The notes under the pieces: model-generated | What the model was told of the DNA's origin: nothing | The model's database searches: none | The model's input: only the letters and a program-made list of their open reading frames with translations | Translations under genes and position numbers: made by a program | Assembly: GCA_029056055.1 (NCBI GenBank) | Contig: JAIDCC010000070.1 | Coordinates: 1-53,256 of the forward strand | DNA length: 53,256 nucleotides | Source of the DNA: Duncaniella sp. | GTDB taxonomy: Bacteria > Bacteroidota > Bacteroidia > Bacteroidales > Muribaculaceae | Reading direction: 5' to 3' | Shown here: positions 11,431-53,256 of the stretch, piece after piece | Numbering within the stretch: position 1 is the stretch's first letter | Layout: each line of letters begins with the position of its first letter

Positions 11431-11465
11431 TCTGATCATCTCATTCCCACGCAACACTTATCTAT

Positions 11466-11793: not shown

Positions 11794-12204
11794 ATGGGTG
11801 TAAGAAAAAGAAATGCAGCAGACCTTCGCAAGGCCGAACAGAAGACTGTCGCCTTCGCTAAGCTGCTCAACATCCCCACCTCTCCGCGCAAGATGCGCCT
11901 GGTGGCCGATATGATTCGCGGCGTCGAGGTCAACCGTGCCCTCGGCATCCTCGAATTCTCCAACAAGGAGGCTGCCGCTCGCCTCAAGAAACTCCTCCTC
12001 TCTGCCATTGCCAACTGGGAGGCCAAGAACGAACGCAAAGCCGATGCAGGCGAGCTCTACGTCAGCACCATCATGGTCAACTGCGCTCCCATGCTCAAGC
12101 GCCTCCGTCCCGCTCCCCAGGGCCGTGGCTACCGCATCCGCAAGCGTGCCAACCACGTCACCATGATTGTTGACACTATCGATAACAAAAACGCAAAAGC
12201 TTAA
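11794..12204 (+). CDS. rplV: 50S ribosomal protein L22
   Basis: A 136-residue protein with [16 protein letters not shown] near the N-terminus and the beta-hairpin segment [17 protein letters not shown], which lines the exit tunnel and is a macrolide-resistance site elsewhere. It ends 4 nt before rpsC. Confidence 0.97.
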
Positions 12205-12208
12205 CCAA

Positions 12209-37401: not shown

Positions 37402-38373
37402 TCAGAGAAGCCTCAGTTCGTCGTTGACGTCTTCGATATCGAAGAGGGAGGAGTTAAGAAATTCAATGTATTCCTTTTCCGATTCAAACCCAACGTTTTC
37501 GCTGCGTTCTTTTCGCTCCTTTTTCGATAACTTGCTCCAATCTTCCAAATCCTTCCGCGCCTGCAGGTAGGCCCACACCCCGCCGAAATCCTCGAGAGCA
37601 TTGAGGTCGCCCTTATACTTGAGGCAGACAGCATTATCGATTCTCTTGGCAATCAAATCCTTCACCTCCACCACGAAAATCCAGTCGTCGCCGAAATCAT
37701 AGACATATTCCAGCTTGTCACCCTTCTTCTGCAAGAACTGAGTGACTTCTGTCTCGTCGGCATCGTGGGTGACGTATTCCAATCCGGGGCGGTAAGGGTT
37801 ATTATCATCCCCCTCGATACCAATTATAAGCGCCTTGTCGTAGGCCTTGACATTAAACTGCCAGAGATGGCTGTCATAGAGGCCCGCCACAGACTGAATC
37901 ACCTCGTGAAGCTGCCCGAAAGTAAAATCAGCCGGAATTTCCACCTCGCGCCACATCGGAGGCTTCGTCACACCTTTCATCTGAATTTTCAGCACAAGCG
38001 TATAGTCTTCAGCATCCTTCAGCGGCGCGTATTCATTGACCGCGCATTCGCCCCCGCGCAACATATTCCCTGCAAACGGCAGCGCGGCATCATCGTCGTC
38101 AGCATCCATGCTTGGTGCAAACCCCTCAATCAGGTTGGCGCTTGCCTCGAAAAAGCTGTAAAACTCAGCATATTCATCGGGAGTGACCCCATTCGAGGCA
38201 AGTGTACACATCAGCAAGAACTTTCTTTGCTCGTCGTCCTCGAGACCATCCATAGCCATGTCGGCCATCTCCTCCGGCTTCGTCATATCCGAAGAACCGT
38301 TATCTGAACCATTGCCTTTAAAATTGCTCAGAATCTGAAAATTGTTCGCGCGTTTATTATCCTTTTTTGCCAT
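37402..38373 (-). CDS. plasmid pRiA4b ORF-3 family protein
   Basis: A 323-residue protein. The family domain (about residues 128-250) is clear: LKIQMKGVTKPPMWREVEIP, FTFGQLHEVIQSVAGLYDSH, HLWQF and YVYDFGDDWIFVVEV. An N-terminal region of about 120 residues is acidic and helical. The family is found on plasmids and as passenger genes of IS1096-like elements; function unknown. A minus-strand promoter lies at 38399-38429. It is convergent with the anSME gene. Confidence 0.85.
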   Translation of the reverse strand: MAKKDNKRANNFQILSNFKGNGSDNGSSDMTKPEEMADMAMDGLEDDEQRKFLLMCTLASNGVTPDEYAEFYSFFEASANLIEGFAPSMDADDDDAALPFAGNMLRGGECAVNEYAPLKDAEDYTLVLKIQMKGVTKPPMWREVEIPADFTFGQLHEVIQSVAGLYDSHLWQFNVKAYDKALIIGIEGDDNNPYRPGLEYVTHDADETEVTQFLQKKGDKLEYVYDFGDDWIFVVEVKDLIAKRIDNAVCLKYKGDLNALEDFGGVWAYLQARKDLEDWSKLSKKERKERSENVGFESEKEYIEFLNSSLFDIEDVNDELRLL

Positions 38374-38398
38374 AAGTAAGACTTACATATATTTTCCG

Positions 38399-38429
38399 CT
38401 AAATTAGTAAAATTCAGCCATACTACAAA
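38399..38429 (-). promoter_or_regulatory. promoter of the pRiA4b ORF-3-like gene
   Basis: Read on the minus strand: TTTG (38426-38429), a 19-nt spacer, then TAATTTAG (38399-38406), close to the consensus. Confidence 0.55.
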
Positions 38430-38451
38430 ATTATTTGCCACCAAACCCTGA

Positions 38452-39330
38452 TTACAGCCGAGCCAATAATTCCGCGCCGGTCATTACTTCCATTTTGGAG
38501 AAAGCGAAGAGCTTCTTGCCGAGGTCTTTGAGTGACGCTCCGATATGGTAAACAGTCTCATCTATTATCAGAAAGCGATCGTGAGCCTTGGAATATTTAT
38601 GAAGCGTCACGCCGGGATACTGCTCATTATGCTTCTCCACATCCTGCCGCAATTGTTTTGAAATCTGGCCGTCATAAATATCTACCGTCACCCCCGGCTG
38701 CCGCTTCGAAAGCTGCACCAGTACGGAGTCATCAATATAATTGTCGATTACGACAATACGGCTTTGGGCTTCCCGGATAAGGTCGGCCACAAGCGCATAG
38801 GCATCGAAAATCTGCCCGTTGAAAAACACACCCTCCTTCGGTTGGAGAGAAGAGCGCACAAAGAAATCCACCTTCTCATCAAGTTGAAGTAGATGACGGT
38901 CATGCTCTGACAAACGCCTGTCAATTCTGTCTTCAAGCTGCATCAAACGCTGATTTACAGAATATCCCCGCAGAAGATAATCTTTCAGCACCTTATTAGC
39001 CCATTGTCGGAACTGAATACCTCTGATAGTATTAACTCTGTATCCCACAGATATAATTACATCAAGATTATAATACAAAATCTTACGCTTGACGTTTCTA
39101 TTACCTTCCTTCTGAACTGTCAAGTATTCCTTGACAGTTGCCACAGCATCTAACTCATCCGCCTTATAGATATTTCTAATATGAAGGCTGATATTTTGTT
39201 TAGTGGCCTGAAATAACTCGGCCATCTGAGTCTGTGTAAGCCACACCGATTCATCCTCAACTCTTACATCAAGAGCCAAGGTGTCATCCGGGTTATAGAG
39301 TATTATCTCGTTAGCCTGATTCTTATCCAT
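38452..39330 (-). CDS. RhuM-family protein with C-terminal PLD-like region
   Basis: A 292-residue protein. The N-terminal half has the RhuM signature: WLTQTQMAELFQATKQNISL (HTH-like), ILYYNLDVIISVGYRVNTIR and FRQWANKVLKDYLLRGYSVN. The C-terminal half (about 180-292) contains YSKAHDRFLIIDETVYHIGA, which resembles an HKD/phospholipase-D-like site (H-D-R-F-x-I-x-D). RhuM proteins are named from a Salmonella pathogenicity island but have no known activity; they are common in accessory regions, often near restriction or toxin-antitoxin genes. A -7-like TAAATTTG on the minus strand at 39335-39342 lies right before the start, giving almost no leader. Confidence 0.8.
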   Translation of the reverse strand: MDKNQANEIILYNPDDTLALDVRVEDESVWLTQTQMAELFQATKQNISLHIRNIYKADELDAVATVKEYLTVQKEGNRNVKRKILYYNLDVIISVGYRVNTIRGIQFRQWANKVLKDYLLRGYSVNQRLMQLEDRIDRRLSEHDRHLLQLDEKVDFFVRSSLQPKEGVFFNGQIFDAYALVADLIREAQSRIVVIDNYIDDSVLVQLSKRQPGVTVDIYDGQISKQLRQDVEKHNEQYPGVTLHKYSKAHDRFLIIDETVYHIGASLKDLGKKLFAFSKMEVMTGAELLARL

Positions 39331-41054: not shown

Positions 41055-41112
41055 TGTCAATTTTTTCCGACACTGAAATCGGCGGCCGTTTGCGGGCGGG
41101 GCGGTAACTTTG
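41055..41112 (+). promoter_or_regulatory. cassette promoter 1 with TGTC-N10-GACA operator
   Basis: TGTC 41055-41058, ten bases, GACA 41069-41072, then 32 bases to TAACTTTG 41105-41112. It continues into ATTGAAATCA. The block from the operator to about 20 nt past the -7 box is almost identical to cassette promoter 2. No TTTG stands at the normal -33 distance, which suggests an activator or alternative factor. Confidence 0.7.
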
Positions 41113-41151
41113 CATTGAAATCAGAAACTAATCTTTAACTATATTAGAGCA

Positions 41152-41850
41152 ATGAACAATGCAGAAAATCGCCTTGCCATTCGCCCGACTCTGGAGCGGA
41201 TTATGGCAACGGCCGACGGTGGTGTGGCGACCGAGCGTTCGCTGGTGGTGCGTACCGATTCTGTCGTCACGTCAGACATCCTCCGGGATGCCGCTGTGCG
41301 ACTGATTAAGCATTCTCAGAGGGTGACGATCGGCAAAAATGCGATATTCGAAGACGGGTTCAACATAGTCTACAATTATGACTCCTCGACGATTGACGAG
41401 TCTATCGAGCTGCTCAAGGGCAAGAGATATGTCATCATCGTCGATTGGGATTTCCAGCCCTCGGAGGAGACGCTTGAGCGCATTGACCTCGTGGATTGCG
41501 TCAACGAGGATGCGATGACGGCTGCTTCTCTCTTCTCCGAACTGAAGTCTCTCCCGGAAGACCTCTACATCTTCGCCCATGAGGATTTTTCGCATGGACT
41601 GATTCCCATCGAACTCAATCAGGTGACCGCCGGGACTGTCGGCTATTCCGATACAGTCGGGAAGTTGCGCCGCGTCGGTCAGATGCTCGACGAGTTGGAG
41701 TCGGTCCGCGATTCCTCACGGGCGGTCATTTATCCAAATGACTTCTTTGCCGGTGTCGAAGACTATGACTCGGAGAGTGATTATGCCATCATTGAGATGG
41801 TGTCGAGAGAAAAGTGTGTTGACAAACTTGTCAATTTTTTCCGACACTGA
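41152..41850 (+). CDS. hypothetical 232-residue protein
   Basis: A soluble protein beginning MNNAENRLAIRPTLERIMAT. Beta strands alternate with helices (RYVIIVDWDFQPSEETLERI; VYNYDSSTIDESIELLKG), suggesting an alpha/beta fold. No family is recognised. Expressed from cassette promoter 1 with a 39-nt leader. Its last codons (KLVNFFRH) run into the next cassette operator, so the repeat overlaps the end of the gene. Confidence 0.6.
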   Translation: MNNAENRLAIRPTLERIMATADGGVATERSLVVRTDSVVTSDILRDAAVRLIKHSQRVTIGKNAIFEDGFNIVYNYDSSTIDESIELLKGKRYVIIVDWDFQPSEETLERIDLVDCVNEDAMTAASLFSELKSLPEDLYIFAHEDFSHGLIPIELNQVTAGTVGYSDTVGKLRRVGQMLDELESVRDSSRAVIYPNDFFAGVEDYDSESDYAIIEMVSREKCVDKLVNFFRH

Positions 41851-41886
41851 AAACGGCGGCCGTTTGCGGGCAGAGCGGTAACTTTG
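41829..41886 (+). promoter_or_regulatory. cassette promoter 2 with TGTC-N10-GACA operator
   Basis: TGTC 41829-41832, GACA 41843-41846, TAACTTTG 41879-41886, with the same 33-nt step as copy 1 and near-identical sequence between. Confidence 0.7.
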
Positions 41887-41930
41887 CATTGAAATCAATA
41901 ACGAACCTCTAACTTCCAAACACCTGAGTT

Positions 41931-42050
41931 ATGATATTCTTTGCACTCGGACTTGTCATCGCCCTGCTCGCCGGCTACATCATCATCGGCCTGCTCCAAC
42001 TTGTATTCTCGCTCATCGGCTGCATCCTCTCATGGGTATTCGACCGATAA
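41931..42050 (+). CDS. 39-residue hydrophobic membrane peptide
   Basis: MIFFALGLVIALLAGYIIIG begins a peptide that is hydrophobic over nearly its whole length and ends SWVFDR. It would span the membrane once, or twice as a hairpin. It is the first open frame after cassette promoter 2 (44 nt after the -7 box), with a good ATG and GC-rich codons in contrast to the next gene. Single-helix peptides of this size include type I toxins and small complex subunits; no family is recognised. Confidence 0.55.
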   Translation: MIFFALGLVIALLAGYIIIGLLQLVFSLIGCILSWVFDR

Positions 42051-42073
42051 ATAAATGTCAAAATAATAACAAT

Positions 42074-43459
42074 ATGGATAATAAGAAAACCGATACAATC
42101 GACAACAAAAGATTTGCCGATCTGGAGTTTGTTCTCAATCCAATTCTTCCTACATTTGGCGAAGTAGATGTTTATGAGATTCCGGAAGTAAAGAAAATAG
42201 TAACAAAAGCTCTGAAAGCCCATAAATTAAAATTTAAATTTGACGATGAAACAGGAAACTTCATTATTCCGATTATCGCCGGTGTCGCGATAATTGCTGA
42301 ATTCGGCAAAGAAACCCGAGGAATATATGAGTGTGGGGTGGGACTTAACACTGAGACCCTTGAATATGGTTCAGAAAACACGATGCATGGACAGCTCAGT
42401 TTCTCTCCTGAGGCAATAGATCGATACATCCCGACACTGGAAGCTATTATTTCTAAAACCGAGGAATTTTTGCAACCATTTATTGTTGCGGAGACTGAAT
42501 CCAAGGATTTCAAAGATATGGTAACCCGTGAAATTGCAAGTCTGGGTTTGAAAGATGTCGTGGTTGCCCAATTGGAAAAGTATGATTTTAAAATGAATGT
42601 GAATGTCTGGGTAAAAGATACTTATACATTGACTAAGGAAATCATACCGGGACTCCGAATTGGGATTAGATTTACTCCCGAGGACTATAAATCGAAATGC
42701 GTCCGATTTATAGAACTTGTCAACATGGTTCCTGAAACATTCGCAGGGAATGACTGGAATAATATTCAGTGTAAACATGAAACACGGCCAAGTAGCGACC
42801 ACTTTAAAACGGGGGGCGGATCTTGGACAGAGTCTCCTGAAAAAATGAACTATACAGATGTGATTGCTGTAGGGAATGATATTCCCGATGAGCTGCCTAT
42901 TCCTGAAAAAGTCTTGAATAGGCTATCTGAAATGGGATTTATATTCTCATTTAAAGAGAATATCCTTAATGTAGTTCTGAGTAACGACTTTGTTTTGTGT
43001 AGAGATGCCAGAAAAGTATATTTCAAGACATCAGAGAGAGAATCAAAAAAAATTCCTTTAAATGATGATGAGTTTATTACCATTCTGCGTATTATAGCAA
43101 AGGCTTCTACCCGAAACGGATACTTAACCCCCAAAGCAAGTGGGCTGGATTACCCTGAGTATGGGCAGTATCCTCTCGATTTTTATGGCGGGATGATTCC
43201 GGCTATCAGAGAGTTTATTCCTCCGATGTCAGACATTCGCACTTCCTCTATTCGCAATGGCGATTGCGTTATAACATTATTGCCCGGGATAGGTTTTATT
43301 CTGCCAAATGATCATAATGCGTCTAATGCGCTTTGGACTTTTTTGGGTAATAATGACGCAATACAGGATGTCCTAAAGATGCAGTCAAAGAAGGCAAAAG
43401 GTCCATTTGTGGAAGTTGGAAATGGAGATTACTGGACTATGTTAAACAAAATTGGATAG
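42074..43459 (+). CDS. hypothetical 461-residue protein
   Basis: A soluble protein. The start at 42074 (MDNKKTDTIDNKRFADLEFV) is chosen for its A-rich upstream region; an ATG at 42032 would overlap the membrane peptide gene. About residues 15-150 and 150-290 alternate helical and beta segments; a C-terminal part (from about 330) has DFYGGMIPAIREFIPPMSD. No family is recognised. AT-rich DNA. Followed after 17 nt by a 34-bp intercistronic repeat. Confidence 0.6.
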   Translation: MDNKKTDTIDNKRFADLEFVLNPILPTFGEVDVYEIPEVKKIVTKALKAHKLKFKFDDETGNFIIPIIAGVAIIAEFGKETRGIYECGVGLNTETLEYGSENTMHGQLSFSPEAIDRYIPTLEAIISKTEEFLQPFIVAETESKDFKDMVTREIASLGLKDVVVAQLEKYDFKMNVNVWVKDTYTLTKEIIPGLRIGIRFTPEDYKSKCVRFIELVNMVPETFAGNDWNNIQCKHETRPSSDHFKTGGGSWTESPEKMNYTDVIAVGNDIPDELPIPEKVLNRLSEMGFIFSFKENILNVVLSNDFVLCRDARKVYFKTSERESKKIPLNDDEFITILRIIAKASTRNGYLTPKASGLDYPEYGQYPLDFYGGMIPAIREFIPPMSDIRTSSIRNGDCVITLLPGIGFILPNDHNASNALWTFLGNNDAIQDVLKMQSKKAKGPFVEVGNGDYWTMLNKIG

Positions 43460-43476
43460 TCAATAATGATTTAAAA

Positions 43477-43510
43477 CAGAAAAAGCCGAGGCACTGGAAA
43501 GGCGGTAGGC
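43477..43510 (+). repeat. 34-bp intercistronic repeat, copy 1
   Basis: It has 33 of 34 bases identical to 43941-43974 (begins CAGAAAAAGCCGAGGC, ends GGAAAGGCGGTAGGC). It stands 31 nt before the next start codon. Confidence 0.85.
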
Positions 43511-43541
43511 GTAAACTCATAATCAATACATAATAGAAAAT

Positions 43542-43907
43542 ATGATTGAAAAAAGAAACTTTAAGGAGGAAATCAAAAAACTCCAAAGAGAAAGTGCAGA
43601 AGCTTGCCTTTCCCTCTTTAAAGAGTATTCAATTTCAGAGATGGAGTTGATGGTATCAGTTTGGATTGAAAGAGAAGGTATGAGTGAATTAGCTGATGCC
43701 ATAGAGCTTGACAATCCAGACGCTGAGAAGCCGTTTGAGTGGTTTTCACTTCGAGGAGAGTACGGTGATTGGATTTCAATCGGCGATGGATACGGGAACT
43801 TTGACTGGGCAGACCTATATGATAGCCTCTGTGATACGATTAACCACTTCCTTGAGAAGGGTATTCCGGTTTCCGAATGGAATAGCCGCGAGTCGTTTGA
43901 TGAGTAA
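43542..43907 (+). CDS. hypothetical 121-residue acidic protein with GIPxSEW motif
   Basis: A small acidic protein: a helical N-terminus (KEEIKKLQRESAEACLSLFK) and an acidic aromatic C-terminus (YGDWISIGDGYGNFDWADLY). Its end, FLEKGIPVSEWNS, matches a motif found twice in the protein at 45161 (GIPTSEWHK and GIPRSEWHK), so the two are probably related. Size, acidity and setting resemble immunity proteins; the function is not known. Confidence 0.6.
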   Translation: MIEKRNFKEEIKKLQRESAEACLSLFKEYSISEMELMVSVWIEREGMSELADAIELDNPDAEKPFEWFSLRGEYGDWISIGDGYGNFDWADLYDSLCDTINHFLEKGIPVSEWNSRESFDE

Positions 43908-43940
43908 TCCTGTGGAATCTCGTCATAAAGAAAACTTCAC

Positions 43941-43974
43941 CAGAAAAAGCCGAGGCGCTGGAAAGGCGGTAGGC
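43941..43974 (+). repeat. 34-bp intercistronic repeat, copy 2
   Basis: Differs from copy 1 by one base. It stands 23 nt before the next start codon. Confidence 0.85.
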
Positions 43975-43997
43975 AAAAACAATTATAATCCATTATC

Positions 43998-44183
43998 ATG
44001 GCGTACTTTAAATTAAAAGGGACGGCAACTATTAATGGTTCATGTAAAAAACCATTTGAAGTAGTTGTCGAATCCAATGACTCTAATTTCACTACTTTCA
44101 GCGACAGGAAGGTAGAGGCTGTTAAAAAACTTTATCCCAGCTGGGAAGCCATCTGTGTAGACTTCTGGGAAAAGATTTCATGA
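43998..44183 (+). CDS. hypothetical 61-residue protein
   Basis: A small protein beginning MAYFKLKGTATINGSCKKPF, with beta-like repeats and ending PSWEAICVDFWEKIS. No family is recognised. It stands behind copy 2 of the intercistronic repeat and is followed by a large RNA fold. Confidence 0.55.
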   Translation: MAYFKLKGTATINGSCKKPFEVVVESNDSNFTTFSDRKVEAVKKLYPSWEAICVDFWEKIS

Positions 44184-44254
44184 TTTTTAATTAAAAACTT
44201 GTATAGAGGTATAACCTTCGCAAGTTAATAATTAAAGACAAAGCTATTTTTCCT

Positions 44255-44318
44255 ATCAGCCGGGTCAGAGGCGCGCCTGAGCGCCCGAATGCCGGTGTGG
44301 TCCGGTGACCCGGCTGAT
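44255..44318 (+). other. three-way-junction-like structured element
   Basis: An outer perfect 13-bp stem (44255-44267 with 44306-44318) encloses two smaller hairpins: GGCGC/GCGCC with a 6-nt loop (about 44270-44285) and CCGG/CCGG around TGTGGT (about 44292-44305). A T-rich stretch follows at 44323-44331, so it could act as a terminator, but the double inner fold is more than a terminator needs. It ends 2 nt before the ATG at 44321. Confidence 0.55.
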
Positions 44319-44320
44319 GG

Positions 44321-44872
44321 ATGTTTTTATTTAGACGAGGACTTGAACTTGAAATGAAATCAGAGGAAGAGCTTTCAGCGGAGGAAGTCGGGGGCAAGTG
44401 GGGCTATGTCGGCGAGGACGGGGCGTGGGTGATTGAGCCGCAGTTTAAGGATGCCTTCGATTTCCTTGACGGGAGGGGATGGGTGAAGGACGACAGCGGC
44501 AAGTGGGGGTGTATCGACCTGTCGGGTGAGTGGATGATTGAGCCGCGGTTTGACGACGTGTGGTGCTGGAATCATGATGAGGGTATCACTCATGTGAGAG
44601 TGGGCGCGAAGCGTGGACTCATTAATAAGGAGGGGCAATGGATTGTCGAGCCGACGTTTGACGACCTGACATGGTTTCACGGGGGGATGGCACTTGCCTT
44701 GGTGGATAGAAAATGGGGCGTAATCGACACGAGTGGCGCGTGGATTACCAAGCCCGAATGGTATTTCGTCGAGATAACCGCTGACATGAGAGTGCGCGCA
44801 AGCGAGGGAGGCCTCGACGATGTGTGGCGATATTTCGACAGGACAGGCAAGGAGATTGACGCAGCAACCTGA
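44321..44872 (+). CDS. WG-repeat protein
   Basis: A 183-residue protein of about four WG repeats (GGKWGYVGEDGAWVIEPQF, SGKWGCIDLSGEWMIEPRF, GAKRGLINKEGQWIVEPTF, DRKWGVIDTSGAWITKPEW), each a short beta unit of about 40 residues. WG-repeat proteins are common in Bacteroidetes, with poorly known roles. The start is uncertain: ATG 44321 touches the structured element, ATG 44354 lies just downstream and may be the true start. Confidence 0.75.
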   Translation: MFLFRRGLELEMKSEEELSAEEVGGKWGYVGEDGAWVIEPQFKDAFDFLDGRGWVKDDSGKWGCIDLSGEWMIEPRFDDVWCWNHDEGITHVRVGAKRGLINKEGQWIVEPTFDDLTWFHGGMALALVDRKWGVIDTSGAWITKPEWYFVEITADMRVRASEGGLDDVWRYFDRTGKEIDAAT

Positions 44873-44893
44873 CAGAGATTGTAAGATTTTTCC

Positions 44894-44937
44894 GACACAC
44901 GAAACGGCACATATCCCGCTACCATGAAGTAACTTTG
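44894..44937 (+). promoter_or_regulatory. cassette promoter 3
   Basis: A diverged copy: TTGT instead of TGTC at the left half-site, GACA at 44894-44897, then TAACTTTG at 44930-44937, again with a 33-nt step. Confidence 0.6.
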
Positions 44938-44943
44938 CAATGA

Positions 44944-45126
44944 AAGTAAGTTCGAAAAATAAAACGATATATGTAAAGAAAAATTCTTGAACAATAAAAC
45001 TCGTTCTTTTTGGATGCTTGAAGCTTGTCATTCAGTTGCATAGCACGCTATGCGCCTTCATTCCGCACTCCAACCATCTCAAAAATAACTTCGTCTTATA
45101 TGTTCATTTATTTTTCTCACTTACTT
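44944..45126. mobile_element. 183-bp MITE-like element
   Basis: Both ends carry inverted AAGTAAGT-N2-GAAAAATAAA (44944-44963 and the reverse complement at 45107-45126). The interior has a perfect GCATAGC-AC-GCTATGC hairpin at about 45038-45053. It codes for nothing and sits in the leader between cassette promoter 3 and the next gene. A half copy lies inverted at 51987-52067. Confidence 0.65.
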
Positions 45127-45160: not shown

Positions 45161-46012
45161 ATGAATCAGGACATCATCACCCGCCAAAAGGTAACGGAAC
45201 TCGAAATTAAGCTTAACAAGATATGGGAAGAACAAGGGTGCTTAGCTCGTATTGATGCTCTATACGATATCCAGGAGTTGATAACTAAACATCTACAGGC
45301 TTATGGTATTAACCAGATTGCTGTCCCTGTCAATCGCAGGTCAGGACTGTTTGAATTCATACGGTGCAGGGATATGAGCGGAGTGATAGATGACGGAAAT
45401 CAACAATCCTGTACGGAGGGTTGTCAATCATACAACACAGAGCCGACCTCAGATGAGATATTTGATGAGTATCTATGTGATACGAACACGATAAAGACTA
45501 TACTCCTTACTATGGATCAATTAACTGAACACGGGATACCTACATCGGAATGGCATAAGGCTCAAGATATATCGGTTTACTGCAACCTCAGAGATCTTGT
45601 CACCCGTGAACAGATTGACCGGATTGAAGAGGGTCTTATCAAAGCTAAGAATGCCCATGACATGAAGGAATATTTCCGTCTCTCTACCATACTTCAGAAG
45701 GGGGTAGTGGCAATACTTGAGAGTAACGGCATTAACCAGATCGCGTTGAAGTATGATGATGGACCGGAATATGAGTTTATAAAGGGTTTCAGTTCATACG
45801 ATATTGACGATTTGGGCTGTTGTCTTCAGACCATGGACTCAATAGAGGAACCTTCTTGTGGCGATTACATAGATTGCATATTGGATCCCGAAACCGCGAG
45901 GGCTATTCTTGACAGACTCGACCGATATAAAGAGCTCGGAATACCGCGCTCGGAGTGGCACAAGCCCCTTGACCTTTCAAAGTATACTGACAAAACTACC
46001 CCCACAGCATGA
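45161..46012 (+). CDS. hypothetical protein made of two related halves, GIPxSEW motif
   Basis: A 283-residue protein with internal duplication. The first half reads YGINQIAVP, FEFI, then EHGIPTSEWHKAQD; the second reads NGINQIALK, YEFIKGF, then KELGIPRSEWHKPLD. The same GIPxSEW motif ends the 121-residue protein at 43542. No known family. It lies between a MITE-like element and the next gene, whose ATG overlaps its stop by 4 nt. Confidence 0.6.
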   Translation: MNQDIITRQKVTELEIKLNKIWEEQGCLARIDALYDIQELITKHLQAYGINQIAVPVNRRSGLFEFIRCRDMSGVIDDGNQQSCTEGCQSYNTEPTSDEIFDEYLCDTNTIKTILLTMDQLTEHGIPTSEWHKAQDISVYCNLRDLVTREQIDRIEEGLIKAKNAHDMKEYFRLSTILQKGVVAILESNGINQIALKYDDGPEYEFIKGFSSYDIDDLGCCLQTMDSIEEPSCGDYIDCILDPETARAILDRLDRYKELGIPRSEWHKPLDLSKYTDKTTPTA

Positions 46013-47397
46013 GAACCTCTTACGGAGACCTGGAAGAACTCGCGTGGCTGGCTGATGTGGTAAAATACAAGCCGGGCACGCCTGAACATGATGAGGCATT
46101 GAAAGAATTTCAGGCGAAGTGTGCTGCGAAACGAGCCGGTGATACCACCGCGGAGGAGAGTCACGATAACAAAGAGGCTTCATCGGGTGAAGTGTCAGGA
46201 ATTTCCGACACCGAAAATCAGCCGGAATCTCATGAAAATAACTTATCTTTGCATCAGAATCAACAGACACACATTATGAGCGAATATCATATCGGAGAAG
46301 AAATCAACAAGGAGATGCGCCGTCAGGGTATGACACTCTCCGACTTTGCCCGGGCATTGCACCGCGAGCGACCGACGGTGTATAACATCTTCAAAAAACG
46401 CCACATTGCCACCGACACTCTCGCCAAGATATGTCGTCTGCTAAACCGTGACTTTTTCAAGGAACTCTCTCGGGTTAATTTCAACTATCAGGAGATGGCT
46501 GAAGAGGATGACTCGCCTGACTTGAAGGAATCAGTGAGCGCACTCATGCCCGAGGATAAACTTCATTCTGTGCCGGACAACTATATGCTTTACGATATTG
46601 TAGAGGAATTTCTGCTCTCCGACAGGGAGAAGCCATTGGTGATATTCTACACCCCGCTTTTGCCCGGAGAGCGAAAGCCGACACTTCAGACACGAATCGA
46701 ACGGCTGGCTCTCAGTCTCTGGGGGCAGGAGGATAGGAAGCACGTATGCGAGCTTCGTCAGTGGGGACCGGAAGATACGGATATCTATATGAGCACATGT
46801 GTGGTGGACGAAGCAAAGCTGAAAAGCTATGTGTTGAATGATAAACATTACAGAGTGGCCATGGGGATGGCAAAGCGCAGTGCTCTGCATGAAGGATGCC
46901 GGACAATCCTCTATATTCCGATTGAAAATGGCACCAACAAGATGCGGCTCGGGCGTACCGGCGGACTGGTCTATGATGATATTGCCGAAGAACTCTTTGA
47001 GGCGTGGAAGGATGAGGCTCATTTCGTCTATGCTCCGGCACTCGGTCCGCGTCTTACCCGCGAACTTTATCACGCCTACCGACGCACGGGCATCATCGAC
47101 CGATTGATTGAACGACTGACCGTAGGTGATGACATATCTATGGATCTTTATGACTTTATCATCGCCCACGACATTCTCGAAGTGGACGAAATCAAAGAGG
47201 CCGACTCAACGGGTCTTTCGCGTATCAAGGTATATTACACCGACTGTGATTCCTTATCGGAGGGCAAGCGGAAACACCTGTTGGAAAATGGAGTCAACGA
47301 CAATCCGCGCCTGAGTATGTGGATAGACATACGCAACGGCTACATAGTAGATTTTGAATACAACAAGCGCACACAGCCATTTACATCAAAGAAATGA
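46009..47397 (+). CDS. HTH (XRE-like) protein, possible regulator, with two candidate starts
   Basis: The frame from 46009 encodes 462 residues; its ATG overlaps the previous stop by 4 nt, which favours coupled translation. An internal ATG at 46276 (373 residues, MSEYHIGEEINKEMRRQGMT) has its own cassette promoter 25 nt upstream, inside the frame. After this internal start comes an XRE-like HTH (DFARALHRERPTVYNIFKKR, then TDTLAKICRLLNRDFF). The rest (about 280 residues) is unrecognised: alternating strands and helices with YDIVEEFLLSDREKPLVIFY and an N-terminal-like Trp-Gly cluster. The first 89 residues have a small folded-looking part and an acidic linker. Possible role: operon regulator or sensor. 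First gene of an eight-gene operon. Confidence 0.65.
   Translation: MRTSYGDLEELAWLADVVKYKPGTPEHDEALKEFQAKCAAKRAGDTTAEESHDNKEASSGEVSGISDTENQPESHENNLSLHQNQQTHIMSEYHIGEEINKEMRRQGMTLSDFARALHRERPTVYNIFKKRHIATDTLAKICRLLNRDFFKELSRVNFNYQEMAEEDDSPDLKESVSALMPEDKLHSVPDNYMLYDIVEEFLLSDREKPLVIFYTPLLPGERKPTLQTRIERLALSLWGQEDRKHVCELRQWGPEDTDIYMSTCVVDEAKLKSYVLNDKHYRVAMGMAKRSALHEGCRTILYIPIENGTNKMRLGRTGGLVYDDIAEELFEAWKDEAHFVYAPALGPRLTRELYHAYRRTGIIDRLIERLTVGDDISMDLYDFIIAHDILEVDEIKEADSTGLSRIKVYYTDCDSLSEGKRKHLLENGVNDNPRLSMWIDIRNGYIVDFEYNKRTQPFTSKK
46193..46251 (+). promoter_or_regulatory. cassette promoter 4 with TGTC-N10-GACA operator (inside a coding frame)
   Basis: TGTC 46193-46196, GACA 46207-46210, then a 34-nt step to TATCTTTG 46244-46251. 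It lies inside the frame that starts at 46009 and 25 nt before ATG 46276. Confidence 0.65.
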
Positions 47398-47774
47398 AAA
47401 TTGAAGATATAATAGCGGTACTCAAATCTGTCGGAGATTCTGCCACTATCGATGATTATGTGACCGAAGTTTATAATGTTGACTACGGCGATGATCGCCG
47501 GTTGTTACTGGCACTAAGTGTAGATGAAATGATTCTGCTGGAATCAAAGATAGTCGATACTTTCGAGGAGGAAGTCTATAGCCTGACAATGACAGACGGC
47601 TACGAAGGCGTTGCGAAACTCATTGCGTATTTCGGGCTTGAAATCTCGGATGCAGATGAGTGTATCGACTCGTTGTTTGACGCGCTGGACCTACTCGTCG
47701 GTCAGGATGGCAATATCGATAAAATCATTGCCCTGCTTAAGCAGCTCGGCATCGGCTATAAAGAATCATATTGA
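47394..47774 (+). CDS. hypothetical acidic 126-residue protein
   Basis: An acidic protein, mostly helical by eye (MKIEDIIAVLKSVGDSATID; DADECIDSLFDALDLLVGQD). No family is recognised. Its start overlaps the upstream stop by 4 nt (ATGA), so it is probably translated together with the HTH protein. Its pI and size fit a small partner or immunity protein. Confidence 0.65.
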   Translation: MKIEDIIAVLKSVGDSATIDDYVTEVYNVDYGDDRRLLLALSVDEMILLESKIVDTFEEEVYSLTMTDGYEGVAKLIAYFGLEISDADECIDSLFDALDLLVGQDGNIDKIIALLKQLGIGYKESY

Positions 47775-47778
47775 GGCC

Positions 47779-47976
47779 ATGAAGTATCTGCGAATCATAA
47801 TCCTGTGCGTTGTCGTATCGGCAACAGTGCTCATTCCTTTCGGGTTGATTGCCGCCGCTTTTACGCCCGGACTTCCGTGGTGGGGACGTCTCTCGCTCGT
47901 CGGTGGTGGACTCCTGACGGCACGGCTTGTCAAACCATTCTCCATTGTCACGGGCAAGGATTTGAAAATCATCTGA
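47779..47976 (+). CDS. two-helix membrane protein of 65 residues
   Basis: MKYLRIIILCVVVSATVLIP starts a first membrane helix; WWGRLSLVGGGLLTARLVK leads a second. The start ATG lies 4 nt after the previous stop. No family is recognised. It is a small membrane component of the operon. Confidence 0.6.
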   Translation: MKYLRIIILCVVVSATVLIPFGLIAAAFTPGLPWWGRLSLVGGGLLTARLVKPFSIVTGKDLKII

Positions 47977-47992
47977 CTTAAAAAACTTACTT

Positions 47993-49327
47993 ATGCAATA
48001 TTGTTTTAACATAGGCAGTCTTTACAAAGACTGGGATATAGAAATGGTCATTACTGTGAGCGAACAAGAACTGACTTTCACTGAGCGCCTCGTCCATCCC
48101 GACTACCGCAAAGAAATCCAAGGCAGAAGATTGTCGATTCTTGACATTCCTCTTTTTGAGAATGTAGTGGGAACATTTAAAGAGCGACTTGATGCCTTTC
48201 TCATGGAACGCCACGAAAAGGGCAAGCTGACAATCGACTCCTTGAAACGTCTGTGCGAACGTCATCGCATAAAATACGAGGAGTCAGGTCAACGGCTCGT
48301 GACAGCTTATCGTAAGCACATAAAGGAGTTGCGGACCTCGGTCAATGAGCGCGAGTTGAAGGGGCGGTCGTTATGTAAAAGGGCAGAGTTATGGCGAAAG
48401 GGCAATCGGCCCGGAACTCCGCAGGATTATGATGAAGCCACCCGTCTGTTCAATGAAGCCATAGCATTGGACTATCTGCCTGCCTACGGGCATCTGGCAA
48501 CTATGCTCGTTCAACGCGGATTTATCCATTCGGCTATTGAAATGGCTGAGAAAGGAGAGAGACGAGGCGACGGACTGTCGATGATTGTGCTCGGCGATAT
48601 CTTATCTGATGTAGTTCAGTCACAGATTCCGACCGACTATAAGCGTGCAGCCAAACTCTATATCTCCGCCTGCGAAAATGGCTATTGTCATAAGGCCACA
48701 CCCCGTCTGCGACACCTTATCAATATCGGCGAATATACCCCTAACGGTAATCTGTTCATGCGGCTGGTCATGTATGAAGCCAAGCGTACCCGTCAACTGC
48801 GTGAGCATCCGGAGGATGAATACTATTTAGACACTGAATATCGGGAGGCAATGCTCCTCAAGATGGATGGCGGCGACGAGGCAAAGATAAACGAGATTCT
48901 CGAACATGCTGTCGAGGTTAACGGCAAGGAATGGCTCAGCGGTTTTCTCGCTACGAGCTATATGCGCATGCATCGGTGGGGGAAGGCTGCCATGATGTCC
49001 ATTAGAGGTACAGAGGGTATAAATACACGCTACTCGTATGCCGCATGGCTCGCTGAGATGGGAGCCGACTTTACCGGTGCCTCCGATGAGTTGGGCACTC
49101 CCGATTATGAGAGTGCCGTCGCTTGGAGCATCAAGGACATCGAGACAGATGGCTACTTCGGATTTGTCATGCTCAATCATCTTATAGCCGAAGGGCATCT
49201 CAATCAGGCGTCGCTCCCTGCCGAAATTGCCATGCGTCTTGACGATTTCAATGCCCGCGCCGAACCCGAGCGCCGTGACATCAATAACTACAACAGTGAC
49301 TGTAGTTTTAATAAAAACGCGAAATGA
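47993..49327 (+). CDS. Sel1/TPR-like repeat protein
   Basis: A 444-residue protein. The middle, from about residue 140, shows helical repeats of the Sel1 type: DYDEATRLFNEAIALDYLPA, YGHLATMLVQRGFIHSAIEM, DYKRAAKLYISACENGY. The N-terminal 110 residues are helical and charged (LERLCERHRIKYEE-like). Such repeats usually bind partner proteins. It starts 16 nt after the membrane protein, and its stop overlaps the next start by 4 nt. Confidence 0.6.
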   Translation: MQYCFNIGSLYKDWDIEMVITVSEQELTFTERLVHPDYRKEIQGRRLSILDIPLFENVVGTFKERLDAFLMERHEKGKLTIDSLKRLCERHRIKYEESGQRLVTAYRKHIKELRTSVNERELKGRSLCKRAELWRKGNRPGTPQDYDEATRLFNEAIALDYLPAYGHLATMLVQRGFIHSAIEMAEKGERRGDGLSMIVLGDILSDVVQSQIPTDYKRAAKLYISACENGYCHKATPRLRHLINIGEYTPNGNLFMRLVMYEAKRTRQLREHPEDEYYLDTEYREAMLLKMDGGDEAKINEILEHAVEVNGKEWLSGFLATSYMRMHRWGKAAMMSIRGTEGINTRYSYAAWLAEMGADFTGASDELGTPDYESAVAWSIKDIETDGYFGFVMLNHLIAEGHLNQASLPAEIAMRLDDFNARAEPERRDINNYNSDCSFNKNAK

Positions 49328-50352
49328 TACATGCTGATTTTCCCGCCGACCTGACTTTCGAGCAGTTCAAGGCTCTTGCCGTGCGTGAGCCTGCCCTCGC
49401 GGGCGACTGGATTTATGAGCTTGAGGCGACTGAGTTTGACGACGAGGCGACAGCATTGTATCCCTGCTTTGAACTTTACTCGACTTCGCGCTACTTCTTC
49501 CGTTCACTTGACGAAGCCGAAAAGTATATGCGTGAGAAGCTTGTCACCCCCTCGGTCTATCGTTTCGTAATCACGCAACGCCCTCTGGGCCGACTTTTCA
49601 ACGAACATGGTGCGCAATGGCTCTACGACCACACGGGCGCGTTGATTGACCGCACCATCACCCGCTGGGACTCTGACGGCGGTATGGAAAGCGTCTTTTT
49701 CGGTCGTCCTGCCGGGCAATTGCGTTTCAAGGGTGGCGATATTGTAGAAGTCATCGGTCATGATAAAGTCAATCTTGGAGTGGTGGTAGGCACGCCCTAT
49801 CCCCTCGAATGGTATTGGGAGAACTACTTGAAACATGGCAAAGAGTATTATTTCGACGCGTCCGACGAGGCAAATTACTACCTCCTCGAAGGTCCGGGCT
49901 ATATGCACCATGTCCATGCCAACACTATTTCTCTAATGTCGCCACGCTGGCCGGTTCCTGATGATATACGCCGCTATTTCGAACACAGTCTCAGACATGC
50001 CGACGATGAAGATTGCGAGGAGGTGTATCGAGCCACCTATTTCGATGATAACGAAATCGGTTTGCTCGGCAGAAATGAAATAGACATAATCTACGATGCC
50101 TCAACCCGCCGTCATCGGCTCACCTACATCTGCGACGATGCCATCAGGAGTGTCAACGATAAGCGGATGGTGTTGCCCGGCACGCTCGATGCAGCGCAGC
50201 TCGGCAGGCTTACTCGTTGGCTCTCGGAAGTGATGTATGGCCGCCCGCGGTTGTGGTATCTCATACGCCACTGGAACGAGAATTGCTGCAACTACGTTTC
50301 GCAACCCCAACTCCCGCTTGACACCACCATAGAACAACTACTGAAACAATAA
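49324..50352 (+). CDS. hypothetical 342-residue protein
   Basis: A soluble, acidic protein beginning MIHADFPADLTFEQFKALAV. It contains GGDIVEVIGHDKVNLGVVVG (a small beta domain, residues about 138-160) and ATYFDDNEIGLLGRNEIDII. No family is recognised. It overlaps the preceding gene by 4 nt. Confidence 0.6.
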   Translation: MIHADFPADLTFEQFKALAVREPALAGDWIYELEATEFDDEATALYPCFELYSTSRYFFRSLDEAEKYMREKLVTPSVYRFVITQRPLGRLFNEHGAQWLYDHTGALIDRTITRWDSDGGMESVFFGRPAGQLRFKGGDIVEVIGHDKVNLGVVVGTPYPLEWYWENYLKHGKEYYFDASDEANYYLLEGPGYMHHVHANTISLMSPRWPVPDDIRRYFEHSLRHADDEDCEEVYRATYFDDNEIGLLGRNEIDIIYDASTRRHRLTYICDDAIRSVNDKRMVLPGTLDAAQLGRLTRWLSEVMYGRPRLWYLIRHWNENCCNYVSQPQLPLDTTIEQLLKQ

Positions 50353-50357
50353 TCGTA

Positions 50358-50573
50358 ATGAACAGCGACGCATACGGTAACGACAATCCGCCTTACACTC
50401 TCTATCAGTCTCCCGACGGTAAATGGGGACTGATGGATAAAGACGGCGTGAGACTCCCCGCTATCTTCAACAGACATGATGACCGGTTTTCGTCTGTCCC
50501 ATGGGAAGTGGTCACTTTCAACGAGCAAGAGGGATGGGACATCCTCGCATGGTATGACCCCGGAGAAATGTAA
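50358..50573 (+). CDS. WG-like 71-residue protein
   Basis: A short protein with one WG-type unit (QSPDGKWGLMDKDGVRLPAI) and an acidic aromatic tail. It starts 5 nt after the previous stop. Confidence 0.6.
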   Translation: MNSDAYGNDNPPYTLYQSPDGKWGLMDKDGVRLPAIFNRHDDRFSSVPWEVVTFNEQEGWDILAWYDPGEM

Positions 50574-50585
50574 TAATAATCAACG

Positions 50586-51377
50586 ATGAATAAACTCAAC
50601 ATAGACGAGGTTCTGGCATTGCATCAGCTTGGCTTGCCGACATCACAGATACTTAAAACCGACCTCGAGGCTTTCAACAAGCTCTATGACGAGCATCCCG
50701 AGATGGATGAATGGCTTGAAAAAATCAACGACAAGCTCGATCGTCAGGAGCGGATGGGCATCGTCAGCCTCTCCTGTCAGGACCGCGATTTTCCTGCACG
50801 CCTGCTGGCGATAGGAGACGACTGCCCGGCAGCCATACATTGCAAAGGCAATCTCGGTCTGCTCACGTCAGAAAAGGCGGTCGCCATTATCGGTGCCCGC
50901 TCTGCCGACAAGGAGGGAAACACAAAAGCCTATCAGCTTGGGGCAGACTATGCACGTGACGGTTATGTCATAGTCAGCGGACTTGCTCTCGGCTGCGATG
51001 CGGCGGCTCATCGCGGCTGTCTTGCGGCGCGAGGCGGCACGATAGCCATCGTCGGCAACGGTCTCGACATCTGTCATCCGAGGGAAAACAAGCCGCTTGA
51101 AGATGCGATTCTTGCCGGAGGCGGACTCATGTTCTCCGAACAGATGATTGGCGTAAAGGCAAACCCCACACGCCTTGTTGCCCGCAACCGTCTTCAGGCA
51201 GCACTCTCAGAGGCTGTAATCCTCGCCCAATGTCCCGCCCAAAGCGGCTCGCTCCACACCATGCGCTTCGCCCGCAAGTATGGCAAACAGAGCCTCGCCG
51301 CCACATTCCCCCGCCGCACTGAGGCCAACGCCGGCAACTATGCCCTCCTCGACAACCACCAAGCCAAACCTATTTAA
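50586..51377 (+). CDS. DprA/Smf-like Rossmann-fold protein
   Basis: A 263-residue protein. From about residue 65: CQDRDFPARLLAIGDDCPAA, AVAIIGARSADKEGNTKAYQ (Rossmann G-x-R), VIVSGLALGCDAAAHRGCLA, GGTIAIVGNGLDICHPRENK, RNRLQAALSEAVILAQCPAQ and SGSLHTMRFARKYGK, all DprA motifs. DprA loads RecA on single-stranded DNA in transformation. The C-terminal winged helix of housekeeping DprA is missing; the protein ends soon after the Rossmann fold. Stand-alone DprA-like proteins occur in several defence-type loci. The first 65 residues are helical. Confidence 0.8.
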   Translation: MNKLNIDEVLALHQLGLPTSQILKTDLEAFNKLYDEHPEMDEWLEKINDKLDRQERMGIVSLSCQDRDFPARLLAIGDDCPAAIHCKGNLGLLTSEKAVAIIGARSADKEGNTKAYQLGADYARDGYVIVSGLALGCDAAAHRGCLAARGGTIAIVGNGLDICHPRENKPLEDAILAGGGLMFSEQMIGVKANPTRLVARNRLQAALSEAVILAQCPAQSGSLHTMRFARKYGKQSLAATFPRRTEANAGNYALLDNHQAKPI

Positions 51378-51388
51378 AATTTCAACAA

Positions 51389-51805
51389 ATGAATGAATCT
51401 ACCTCATGGAATGGCTACACCGTCAATGGTGACAGTTCCGAACTCGACAAAATTATTGCTACACCGAATATCATATCTCTTGATAAGAATGATATTATCA
51501 GCGTATTGTCCCGCGAAGGGGAGCATAGGATAACGACCGGAGTCGGTGCCGACAGCCTTAGTGCGCTCAACGCCGCAATCTCCGCCCTCGGGCGTCCTCT
51601 TGACAAGGTCACGGCCATGCTCGTGAACATCTATTGTAAGGATAAGCGTCAACTCCTGATGTCGGAAATAGGCAGTATGTTGGAGCCGTTTAAGGAATGT
51701 CTCGACACCGACTGCGATGTGCTGTGGGGCGTCGCAGAAGATTCTGAAATAGAGTCTCCGCGAAAGGTCACATTACTCGTTACGATACAACAGGATGGAG
51801 AATAA
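51389..51805 (+). CDS. stand-alone FtsZ C-terminal-domain-like protein
   Basis: A 138-residue protein. Residues from about 50 read ADSLSALNAAISALGRPLDK, then VTAMLVNIYCKDKRQLLMSE, IGSMLEPFKECLDTDCDVLW, and finally RKVTLLVTIQ. This follows the FtsZ C-terminal domain: A-x3-A-x2-SPL, a hydrophobic strand with NI, a helix with D/E, then D(A/C)D-x2-(I/V)-x(W/F)G, and a final strand. The GTPase domain is absent. It could bind FtsZ or poison cell division, but this is inference. Last gene of the operon, 11 nt after the DprA-like gene. Confidence 0.6.
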   Translation: MNESTSWNGYTVNGDSSELDKIIATPNIISLDKNDIISVLSREGEHRITTGVGADSLSALNAAISALGRPLDKVTAMLVNIYCKDKRQLLMSEIGSMLEPFKECLDTDCDVLWGVAEDSEIESPRKVTLLVTIQQDGE

Positions 51806-51807
51806 AT

Positions 51808-51975
51808 CAGTATAGACAAGCCTTGAATATCCTCCGCACTGCAATCGTAGAAATCTCCGACTATCTTGAGAGGTTATATAAATCTAAACCTCACAAAAAC
51901 TAAGGCATTCTCCCCTATATCGAATGGCTGAAAGATTATGAAATCACCCGAGCCGAGATTTTGAGAGACATTTAG
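51808..51975 (+). pseudogene. broken gene fragment after the operon
   Basis: One frame reads ALNILRTAIVEISDYLERLY, meets a TAA at 51901-51903, then continues in the same frame as GILPYIEWLKDYEITRAEIL to a TAG at 51973. The two parts look like one protein interrupted by a stop. No start codon. Confidence 0.5.
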
Positions 51976-51986
51976 TGAACGAAAGG

Positions 51987-52067
51987 CTCAAAGCATCCAA
52001 AAAGAACGTGTTTTATCTGTTCAATAATTTTTCTTCACACATGTCGTTTTATTTTTAGAACCTACTT
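51987..52067 (-). repeat. inverted half copy of the MITE-like element
   Basis: Read on the minus strand it matches 44944-45024 with about ten differences in 82 positions, including the AAGTAGGTTC end and CGTTCTTTTTGGATGC. The matching outer end faces away from the 45-52 kb genes. Confidence 0.8.
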
Positions 52068-52368: not shown

Positions 52369-53256
52369 CTATTGATGAGATGAGAGAATCTTTTCTGCGA
52401 AGGTCTTGATTTGATGGCGGAGCCATGCGGGCTCGAGCACTTCAATCGACTCTCCCATCCTCATTAGCTCGTGCTGAAACTCATATTCGGGGCTGAGACG
52501 ATACTCGTATATGGTGTATCCCTCGGTGGTCTCCACCGCCCTCTGTGTGTGATGAAGCGGAAGATTATCAAGATAGTTGCGCTGTGGCGCGGTCACCTTC
52601 ACGAGCACACGTTCCACGCTGTAATCTGAATCCAAATTCACTCCGACCACCTCTGAAAAATATGTTGAAGGCTCAATCTCGGGGTCAAATTCAAAGCGGT
52701 CGGCCGTGAGCTCGACTGACAATATCCGGTCGAGAGCCAACGGAATAATCGCGCCCGTCTCCAGACGCGACACTACATACCACAGTTGCTTGCTCTTTTT
52801 AAGGAACTGAGGTTCGACGATATGACGGCGGGTCTTGCCTGAGAATTGCGACCGATACACGACCGAAATCTTCACCTGAAGCTGCAAAGCATCAAGCACC
52901 GACGAAATATTTGACATACCCGCGGCATTCGGCTCGTCAATCACTCGGTTCGCCAAATCCTTATTATCCAACAATCGGTTGTCGACAGCCAGACGACTGA
53001 ACAGATTTGCCGTAAAAGAATTTTCCTCCAGCACCTCCGGATTCTCAATATAATATTCATTTCCCGAGCGGCGGTCGCAGACAATATCTATTCCGAAAAT
53101 GTCGGCGATGGCTTGTCTGTGACGATGAAACGTCCGCTCCGGAATCTCTGATTCACCATCGTAGTTGAGTGTGGAATTCCGGCTCCACAGACGGTTTACC
53201 TCGTCAATGGTGATTCGTCCCGACCTGCGAATGGTCTCCGCAAGCCACACATATTT
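52369..53256 (-). CDS. WYL-domain transcriptional regulator (5' end outside window)
   Basis: At least 293 residues are visible; the frame runs past the right edge (upstream codons Lys-Tyr-Val precede the GTG at 53250), so the start is cut off. The N-terminal HTH-like part reads RRSGRITIDEVNRLWSRN and ERTFHRHRQAIADIFGID. The WYL domain (about 130-200) includes KKSKQLWYVVSRLETGAIIP, then a C-terminal extension (EYEFQHELMRMGESIEVLEP). WYL regulators bind nucleic acid-derived ligands and often control defence or DNA-damage genes. It is the nearest regulator to the shared operators, so it is a candidate for binding them, without direct evidence. Confidence 0.8.
   Translation of the reverse strand, partial: KYVWLAETIRRSGRITIDEVNRLWSRNSTLNYDGESEIPERTFHRHRQAIADIFGIDIVCDRRSGNEYYIENPEVLEENSFTANLFSRLAVDNRLLDNKDLANRVIDEPNAAGMSNISSVLDALQLQVKISVVYRSQFSGKTRRHIVEPQFLKKSKQLWYVVSRLETGAIIPLALDRILSVELTADRFEFDPEIEPSTYFSEVVGVNLDSDYSVERVLVKVTAPQRNYLDNLPLHHTQRAVETTEGYTIYEYRLSPEYEFQHELMRMGESIEVLEPAWLRHQIKTFAEKILSSHQ

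Follow-up and report, generated by a model that had tools for sequence, protein, structure and literature searches.

A putative modular, HTH-controlled island in Duncaniella with a ShosA-like DprA and a stand-alone FtsZ C-terminal domain

The DprA homologues act as antitoxins in shosTA (PMC9122126), and the FtsK- and FtsZ-type domains are infrequent effectors in the vWA-MoxR conflict systems (PMC7159879, section 17). FtsZ together with the phage protein Gp0.4 triggers CapRel immunity, being sensed by CapRel, and Gp0.4 is predicted to bind the synergy-loop face of FtsZ and is likened to SulA and MciZ (PMC13423816). Background on this T7 or synergy loop is given in PMC8456036.

Here, we analysed a window of 53,256 nucleotides (nt), the whole stretch of Duncaniella sp. 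DNA on contig JAIDCC010000070.1, for a run of eight genes ending at 51805. A preliminary description had proposed the run as an undescribed, conflict-type set with a DprA relative and with an FtsZ domain that could touch division. Both points are supported, and the DprA is near the anti-phage antitoxin ShosA. With an even chance, as we judge it, the block forms the distal part of a modular island of ~12 kb (40–52 kb of the window), of a defence or counter-toxin kind and under the control of a helix-turn-helix (HTH) protein. The sequence features carrying this reading are an operator-promoter before four units, the cargo turnover, the DprA-G5 pairing and a synergy loop. The genes are as follows, where G numbers denote genomes (G000 being that of the window) and L numbers denote loci.

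46276..47397 (probable start 46276), + strand: gene 1, Cro/C1-type HTH regulator with a ~300-residue C-terminal part of no recognised family
47394..47774, + strand: gene 2, acidic protein of 126 residues, in G000, G205 and G278 only among the loci compared
47779..47976, + strand: gene 3, membrane protein of 65 residues, with two helices in the preliminary reading
47993..49327, + strand: gene 4, Sel1/TPR-like protein (sub-threshold) of 444 residues, in 3/297 genomes
49324..50352, + strand: gene 5, G5 family, DprA partner, elsewhere fused behind a UPF0227 hydrolase
50358..50573, + strand: gene 6, 71-residue protein between G5 and DprA, with relatives in L035, L042 and L078
50586..51377, + strand: gene 7, short ShosA-like DprA of 263 residues
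51389..51805, + strand: gene 8, stand-alone FtsZ C-terminal domain (FtsZ-CTD) with synergy-loop D32 and D35

The gaps between successive genes are −4, +4, +16, −4, +5, +12 and +11 nt, all on the + strand, which bears out the tight spacing first described (overlaps of 4 nt or gaps of at most 16 nt). G205 (L042) holds the whole octet in synteny, with HTH, G5 and gene 6 each in two frames in an island stretch of many ambiguous bases. G278 (L062) has genes 1–5 syntenic, gene 5 being interrupted by the contig end, and in a third relative, G196, the start of gene 1 is at the contig end. The ratios of replacement to silent substitution rates (dN/dS) are 0.09 for FtsZ-CTD and 0.11 for DprA against G205, and 0.15 for HTH, 0.17 for the Sel1-like gene, 0.12 for G5 and 0.32 for the acidic gene against G278. 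The exceptions, both against G205, are the HTH 5′ part with 0.67 and the acidic gene with three replacement and no silent changes. Because of the synteny in G205 and G278 and mostly such ratios well below 1, the eight frames are taken as genuine genes rather than chance ones.

The regulatory layout was found via the intergenic repeats. It consists of a TGTC-N10-GACA dyad (half of it at the third site) followed by TAnnTTTG, which we take to be the Bacteroidetes-type promoter element. The pertinent features up to gene 1 are these.

41055..41114, + strand: operator (TGTC-N10-GACA) and promoter (TAACTTTG) of transcription unit 1
41152..41850, + strand: unit 1 protein of 232 residues, no Pfam match, also in the G205 and G196 islands
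41829..41888, + strand: operator and promoter of transcription unit 2
41931..44872, + strand: unit 2, with proteins of 39, 475, 121 and 61 residues and a WG-repeat protein (44321/44354-44872); its extent is judged by the spacing of the genes and by the lack of any TAnnTTTG less than 150 nt from the starts of the later ones
44880..44939, + strand: operator half-site (TGTA...GACAC) and promoter of transcription unit 3
44944..45126, no strand assigned: high-copy repeat with inverted ends, like a miniature inverted-repeat transposable element, in the unit 3 leader
45161..46012, + strand: B gene of 283 residues with two internal repeats, overlapping gene 1 by 4 nt
46009-47397, + strand: gene 1 open frame as first listed
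46009..46275, + strand: N-terminal 89 residues encoded by the gene 1 frame; G205, G196 and G278 conserve them and the distant HTH homologues lack them
46193..46253, + strand: operator and promoter for the HTH gene, lying within the frame of gene 1

The pattern TTTCCGACAC-N(20-45)-TAnnTTTG, in which the TTTCCGACAC core is 10 bases, has four matches in the 2.88-Mb genome, at 41064, 41838, 44889 and 46202. All are on the + strand and in the island, and the control gave no match in the genome. The fourth precedes the probable HTH start. Four units appear to share one kind of operator-promoter, the eight-gene block being the last of them. In the 150 nt ahead of each of the seven genes that follow gene 1 there is no TAnnTTTG, and therefore the block is plausibly one transcript from ~46260.

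The HTH protein probably starts at 46276 and not at 46009, because that is where its homologues start in L064, L065 and L066, and because the promoter and operator lie just upstream, in-frame. The operon had been described as beginning at 46009, yet the B gene overlaps gene 1, so that the run itself begins earlier.

The operator travels with the regulator. The dyad precedes the HTH homologues in L062 and L065 and is also at sites in L064 and L066. In the different genus that L064, L065 and L066 represent, the operator has thus been kept together with the HTH family. Its 18-base form, TGTCNANTTTTNCNGACA, is found in 6/7 HTH-positive genomes at 11 places, all within HTH islands, and in 5/70 other, hand-chosen genomes at one place each (Fisher 1.3e-5); the reversed control has matches in 2/77 genomes. 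The single miss among the positives is G205, with its many ambiguous bases. The pattern was drawn from sites in the positive loci, and therefore the informative part is its rarity elsewhere. A search with the loose-spacer dyad was dropped for its background (25/37 genomes) and the 18-base form was used instead. On these counts, operator presence appears to track the gene 1 homologues, and the HTH protein may repress its own unit and the other three.

The survey sample was 297 genomes of the family, taken as Muribaculaceae, that of the window included. Besides the Sel1-like gene 4, it holds HTH homologues of full length or near-identical start in seven genomes (the remaining matches cover little beyond HTH domains), the short DprA in 17 (E up to 1e-45) and G5 in 20 (E up to 1e-6). 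The stand-alone FtsZ-CTD is in at least 21, as counted from the matches listed (down to about E 7e-7) with those in long FtsZ frames set aside. At a relaxed cut-off, two remoter FtsZ-CTD-like groups turn up in DprA loci, one at L079 (E 2.3e-5) and another at L067 and L068 (E ~0.002). Being marginal, these stay outside the 21-genome count, yet they are three of the 25 FtsZ-CTD neighbour rows.

DprA and G5 co-occur in eight genomes against 1.1 expected (p 1.6e-6), FtsZ-CTD and G5 in six against 1.4 (p 0.001), and DprA and FtsZ-CTD in five against 1.2 (p 0.004), where the p-values ignore kinship. In all eight shared genomes, DprA and G5 are on the same contig within ~1 kb, and by this placement DprA-G5 is a real, recurrent neighbour pair. 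DprA and FtsZ-CTD are less than 2 kb apart in G000, G205 and G243, ~9 kb apart in G102 and on different contigs in G159; G199 has only DprA fragments beside its FtsZ-CTD. The FtsZ-CTD is a separate cassette.

The idea of eight genes as one system is thus unsupported, as gene 4 is in so few genomes and DprA, G5 and FtsZ-CTD recur with other partners. As a syntenic block, the whole set is in G205 and its first five genes are in G278, and three parts recur separately. Scattered homologues, named in advance as the refuting outcome, are largely what is found for the octet, though not for the DprA-G5 pair. One eight-protein complex was rejected for the same scatter.

The silent-site divergence (dS) between G000 and G205 is 0.31 for DprA, 0.03–0.07 for the membrane, Sel1-like, G5 and FtsZ-CTD genes and 0.13 for the HTH second half. 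The DprA value is hence 4–9 times those of the four genes and 2.4 times that of the HTH half. In G205, three additional genes separate DprA from FtsZ-CTD. From the DprA excess and the extra genes, the cargo exchange is apparently gene by gene, and the octet appears a local assortment around the recurrent DprA-G5 pair.

Such turnover would also be seen at a hypervariable spot that gathers unrelated genes of no joint function, the shared promoter being local duplication only. The high-copy repeat in the leader and a gene remnant at 51806-51975 would suit it as well. However, the operator kept with the HTH family in another genus, the DprA-G5 pairing and the mostly purifying selection go against it, and we regard it as very improbable.

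The repeat is ~184 bp with inverted ends and has 42 places listed in the genome (40 of 121 candidates scored). A truncated inverted copy is behind gene 8, at 51976-52067. We considered and rejected the idea that the operon as a whole inverts between the repeats 44944-45034 and 51976-52067, which are inverted to each other; with so many places in the genome, this pairing is likely incidental.

Gene 7 has ShosA as its best PADLOC match (PDLC03961, 3.3e-57), is aligned with the ShosA structure 9vzo at 2.4e-34 and also aligns with a solved DprA (3uqz). Against the canonical DprA model TIGR00732, it scores 154.3 bits, below the NCBIfam cut-off of 191.15, and a second DprA of 30% identity is on contig C90. 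The mean column identity is 72% for DprA (n=13), 44% for FtsZ-CTD (n=18) and 24% for G5 (n=14). No plasmid record matches the short DprA at E 1e-40, and among phage records it has seven matches, all below 60% identity.

Within 3 kb of DprA, G5 is in 10/24 rows and the UPF0227 hydrolase, alone or fused with G5, in 8/24. Further genes near DprA encode bpMoxR together with a sub-threshold vWA protein (L074), bpMoxR (L077) and a sacsin-type protein. Among the 73 DprA neighbours, the PADLOC models matched (25 shown out of 122) include AbiL, AriA, PtuA and PDC candidates, and PDDEXK models are matched also. Seven DprA islands (L035, L042, L067, L068, L069, L073 and L079) lie within ~8 kb of the same 73-residue acidic gene, which suggests a chromosomal hotspot. 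Four of them adjoin a putative cobalamin adenosyltransferase gene.

The likeness to ShosA raises the alternative of a toxin-antitoxin or abortive system resembling ShosTA. Until phage infection, DprA would then hold a toxic partner in check, the partner being G5 or, as a division toxin, the FtsZ-CTD. The PADLOC best match, the alignment to 9vzo and the tight coupling of G5, gene 6, DprA and FtsZ-CTD would agree, as would the DprA homology of the shosTA antitoxins (PMC9122126). Yet no phosphoribosyltransferase (PRTase; ShosT) is among the window proteins scanned, none is in 25 of the 26 Pfam families shown for the 73 DprA neighbours, and 20/25 FtsZ-CTD rows are without DprA within 3 kb. ShosTA membership was rejected, as the ShosA-like DprA is present and an adjacent ShosT absent among the scanned proteins. 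The alternative itself is improbable in our estimate.

The likeness of gene 8 and its relatives to FtsZ starts where helix H7 ends, runs through the C-terminal domain and covers nothing else. The gene 8 match spans positions 202-325 of the FtsZ model and ~186-303 of solved FtsZ, and the N-terminal GTP-binding domain is not present in it. With a profile E of 2.3e-10 against solved FtsZ, a chance match was rejected. The label FtsZ-C first given thus holds at the profile level, and its Pfam score is sub-threshold (FtsZ_C 17.8 bits, cut-off 27).

The comparison covered 18 FtsZ-CTDs. It excluded both fusions, one truncated form, a whole-length but degenerate form and the G205 copy, which is near-identical. 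At the 66 columns invariant in ten FtsZ proteins of the family, the FtsZ-CTDs keep 15 (in ≥75% of the 18) and lose 32 (in 20% or fewer), with 19 between. Five of the 18 invariant D/E/K/R/N columns are kept in at least 14/18, and two of the five are the aspartates of the synergy loop. D32, kept in 15/18, aligns with E. coli D209, and D35, kept in 18/18, with D212. In the tree, the 18 stand-alone forms and the HAD and FtsK fusions make one clade, apart from the ten family FtsZ and that of E. coli.

There is no GTP site, yet the residues reaching a neighbour's GTP site are kept, so that action in trans is the simplest explanation. The FtsZ-CTD would work via its synergy-loop face on the host FtsZ or on factors binding that face. 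It may cap FtsZ filaments, to which we give slightly less than an even chance. That it acts as bait is possible though rather unlikely.

Within 3 kb of FtsZ-CTD, a HAD_SAK_2 RNA-repair-type phosphatase is in 7/25 rows and an ADP-ribosylglycohydrolase in 4/25, with another at 3.9 kb; RtcB makes up two of the 72 neighbour proteins. A type VI secretion toxin reportedly ADP-ribosylates FtsZ, its immunity protein being an ADP-ribosylhydrolase. One FtsZ-CTD is fused with HAD (L044) and one with an FtsK motor (L081). The latter, at 8194-9897 of its locus, joins the FtsK motor and gamma domain to the FtsZ C-terminal domain, and a gene of the ADP-ribosylglycohydrolase family follows 4 nt on. L053 has an arrangement reminiscent of a split FtsZ, in which an N-terminal half (11003-11554) and a C-terminal half (11848-12345) are encoded separately and a small gene lies in the 293 nt that part them. 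L057 has a degenerate whole-length FtsZ-like protein of 276 residues (8955-9785), 30 nt behind a stand-alone FtsZ-CTD and ahead of ADP-ribosylglycohydrolase, DprA and G5 genes.

These damage-reversing enzymes beside the FtsZ-CTD relatives could also mean that the FtsZ-CTD is a decoy or spare against an FtsZ-attacking toxin, and DprA likewise for DNA damage. The shared orientation of the run, its mostly unknown and in part duplicated families and the conservation between its genes would be in keeping with this. However, the 15 window proteins scanned with Pfam (the small genes at 40074, 41931, 43542, 43998 and 47779 being outside the scan) include no recombinase and no Pfam immunity family, no toxin family is matched, and the GC content is 0.44–0.57, not below 0.41. 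We consider this alternative unlikely.

The FtsZ-CTD has no match in phage and plasmid records at E 1e-5. Among 393 genomes of the order at the strict E of 1e-26, only the window's own genome matches; the rows shown include few genomes of the family. Among the titles listed, a literature search found no publication on stand-alone FtsZ C-terminal domains in defence.

Some gene labels are weaker. The Sel1-like label rests on a sub-threshold Pfam score (22.9 bits, cut-off 30.7). Gene 6, first read as WG-like, has no Pfam match and keeps a weak link (~1e-6) with WG-repeat proteins. Against solved structures, neither G5 (best E 0.13) nor gene 4 (best E 0.096) has a usable sequence relative, and the HTH family has none at 0.01.

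Several other features flank the block. PRiA4_ORF3-like and RhuM family genes (37402-39330) lie at the island's left edge, past a region of ribosomal-protein genes. Behind gene 8 are the following.

51806..51975, + strand: remnant, the tail of another array gene, from a by-eye comparison with a G205 gene
52369-53250, convergent to the block: WYL/WCX regulator, of a family with 11 rows in the compared loci, its own included

As to the mechanism, the HTH protein would bind TGTC-N10-GACA, repress its own and the three other units and release the DNA when its C-terminal part reads a signal. DprA, being ShosA-like, may be the conserved sensor, either for a nucleotide or for single-stranded DNA, and the output or regulation would come from its variable partners (G5, UPF0227 hydrolase, bpMoxR with the vWA-like protein, sacsin-type protein). 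The FtsZ-CTD, devoid of the GTP site, keeps the loop that enters the neighbouring FtsZ's GTP pocket. Most likely it would meet FtsZ from outside, cap the filaments and hold division; next most likely it would soak up phage or rival proteins gripping the same FtsZ face. The island would serve defence or damage survival.

Several points weigh against this modular, HTH-controlled island. The 18-base operator form fits just two of the window's four sites, 44889 carries half the dyad, and the loose dyad has background in most genomes searched. The 150-nt check misses promoters behind a long leader, such as unit 3's own, and repression by the HTH protein is argued from position and co-occurrence. 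The FtsZ-CTD clade has a low node support of 0.32, and pairwise dN/dS of 0.19–0.80 (ten pairs in one close FtsZ-CTD group) means that the constraint is not uniformly strong. The synergy-loop conservation fits capping and decoy alike. DprA is within 2 kb of FtsZ-CTD in those three genomes only, so that, with the many rows lacking it, the support for genes 7 and 8 acting jointly is weak; kinship could bear on the co-occurrences. The defence-type neighbours were counted without a matched control, and the AriA and PtuA matches may be generic ATPases.

More widely, the stand-alone FtsZ-CTDs might be a defence family of their own, a tentative and rather doubtful proposal. They would be detached copies of the FtsZ face gripped by division inhibitors of phages and rivals, serving as bait or caps with swappable modules, namely ShosA-like DprA-G5, ADP-ribosylglycohydrolase, HAD repair-type phosphatase and the FtsK motor fusion, and with one repressor here. 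They are seen here in one gut family only. If true, they would be a bacterial counterpart of the integrated decoys in plant immune receptors.

In any case, the FtsZ-CTD is a testable family, a piece of the division machinery cut loose and set among conflict genes. If it caps, it would be a division brake made from FtsZ itself. If it is bait, bacteria would guard FtsZ with a copy, consistent with the CapRel/Gp0.4 report (PMC13423816). The dedicated operator offers a handle for finding more such islands.

Compared with the known systems, gene 7 aligns over the DprA core and keeps the SGLA-GCD, ARNR and SG(S/T)-H stretches across 13 relatives, as in ShosA and DprA. It differs from ShosTA in that its neighbours are G5 and others, with no PRTase toxin partner seen. 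With the vWA-MoxR systems, the loci share FtsZ/FtsK-type domains and, in L074 (plus a sub-threshold vWA) and L077, bpMoxR beside the short DprA, whereas no MoxR or vWA match is among the 15 window proteins scanned.

The rAID arrays of Bacteroidales (PMC12247911) are similar in the co-oriented array, the conserved intergenic sequence and the duplicated families. The island differs by having no recombinase found, higher GC and several larger genes. Its gene GC is 0.438–0.567 (nine genes) against the rAID level of below 41%, and no tyrosine recombinase or integrase is among the 15 proteins scanned; G205 has an integrase (PF00589, 3.6e-24), which lies outside its island, past the other end, and is encoded on the opposite strand. 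As to an intergenic motif, the island has the repeated operator-promoter, which may or may not correspond to the rAID motif. Because of the lacking recombinase match in the proteins scanned and the GC above 41%, rAID membership was rejected.

Last, with FtsZ (TIGR00065, PF12327), the FtsZ-CTD shares the C-terminal domain and the synergy-loop aspartates, and a W-G pair common with the family FtsZ and not with that of E. coli. It lacks the GTP-binding domain and the C-terminal tail and has a conserved start of its own, WNGYPV-GD--ELD. In relation to the inhibitors of the Gp0.4, SulA and MciZ type and to the CapRel sensing (PMC13423816), the face predicted to be bound by Gp0.4 is the loop kept by the FtsZ-CTD. 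The difference is that the FtsZ-CTD copies the target face, not the inhibitor.

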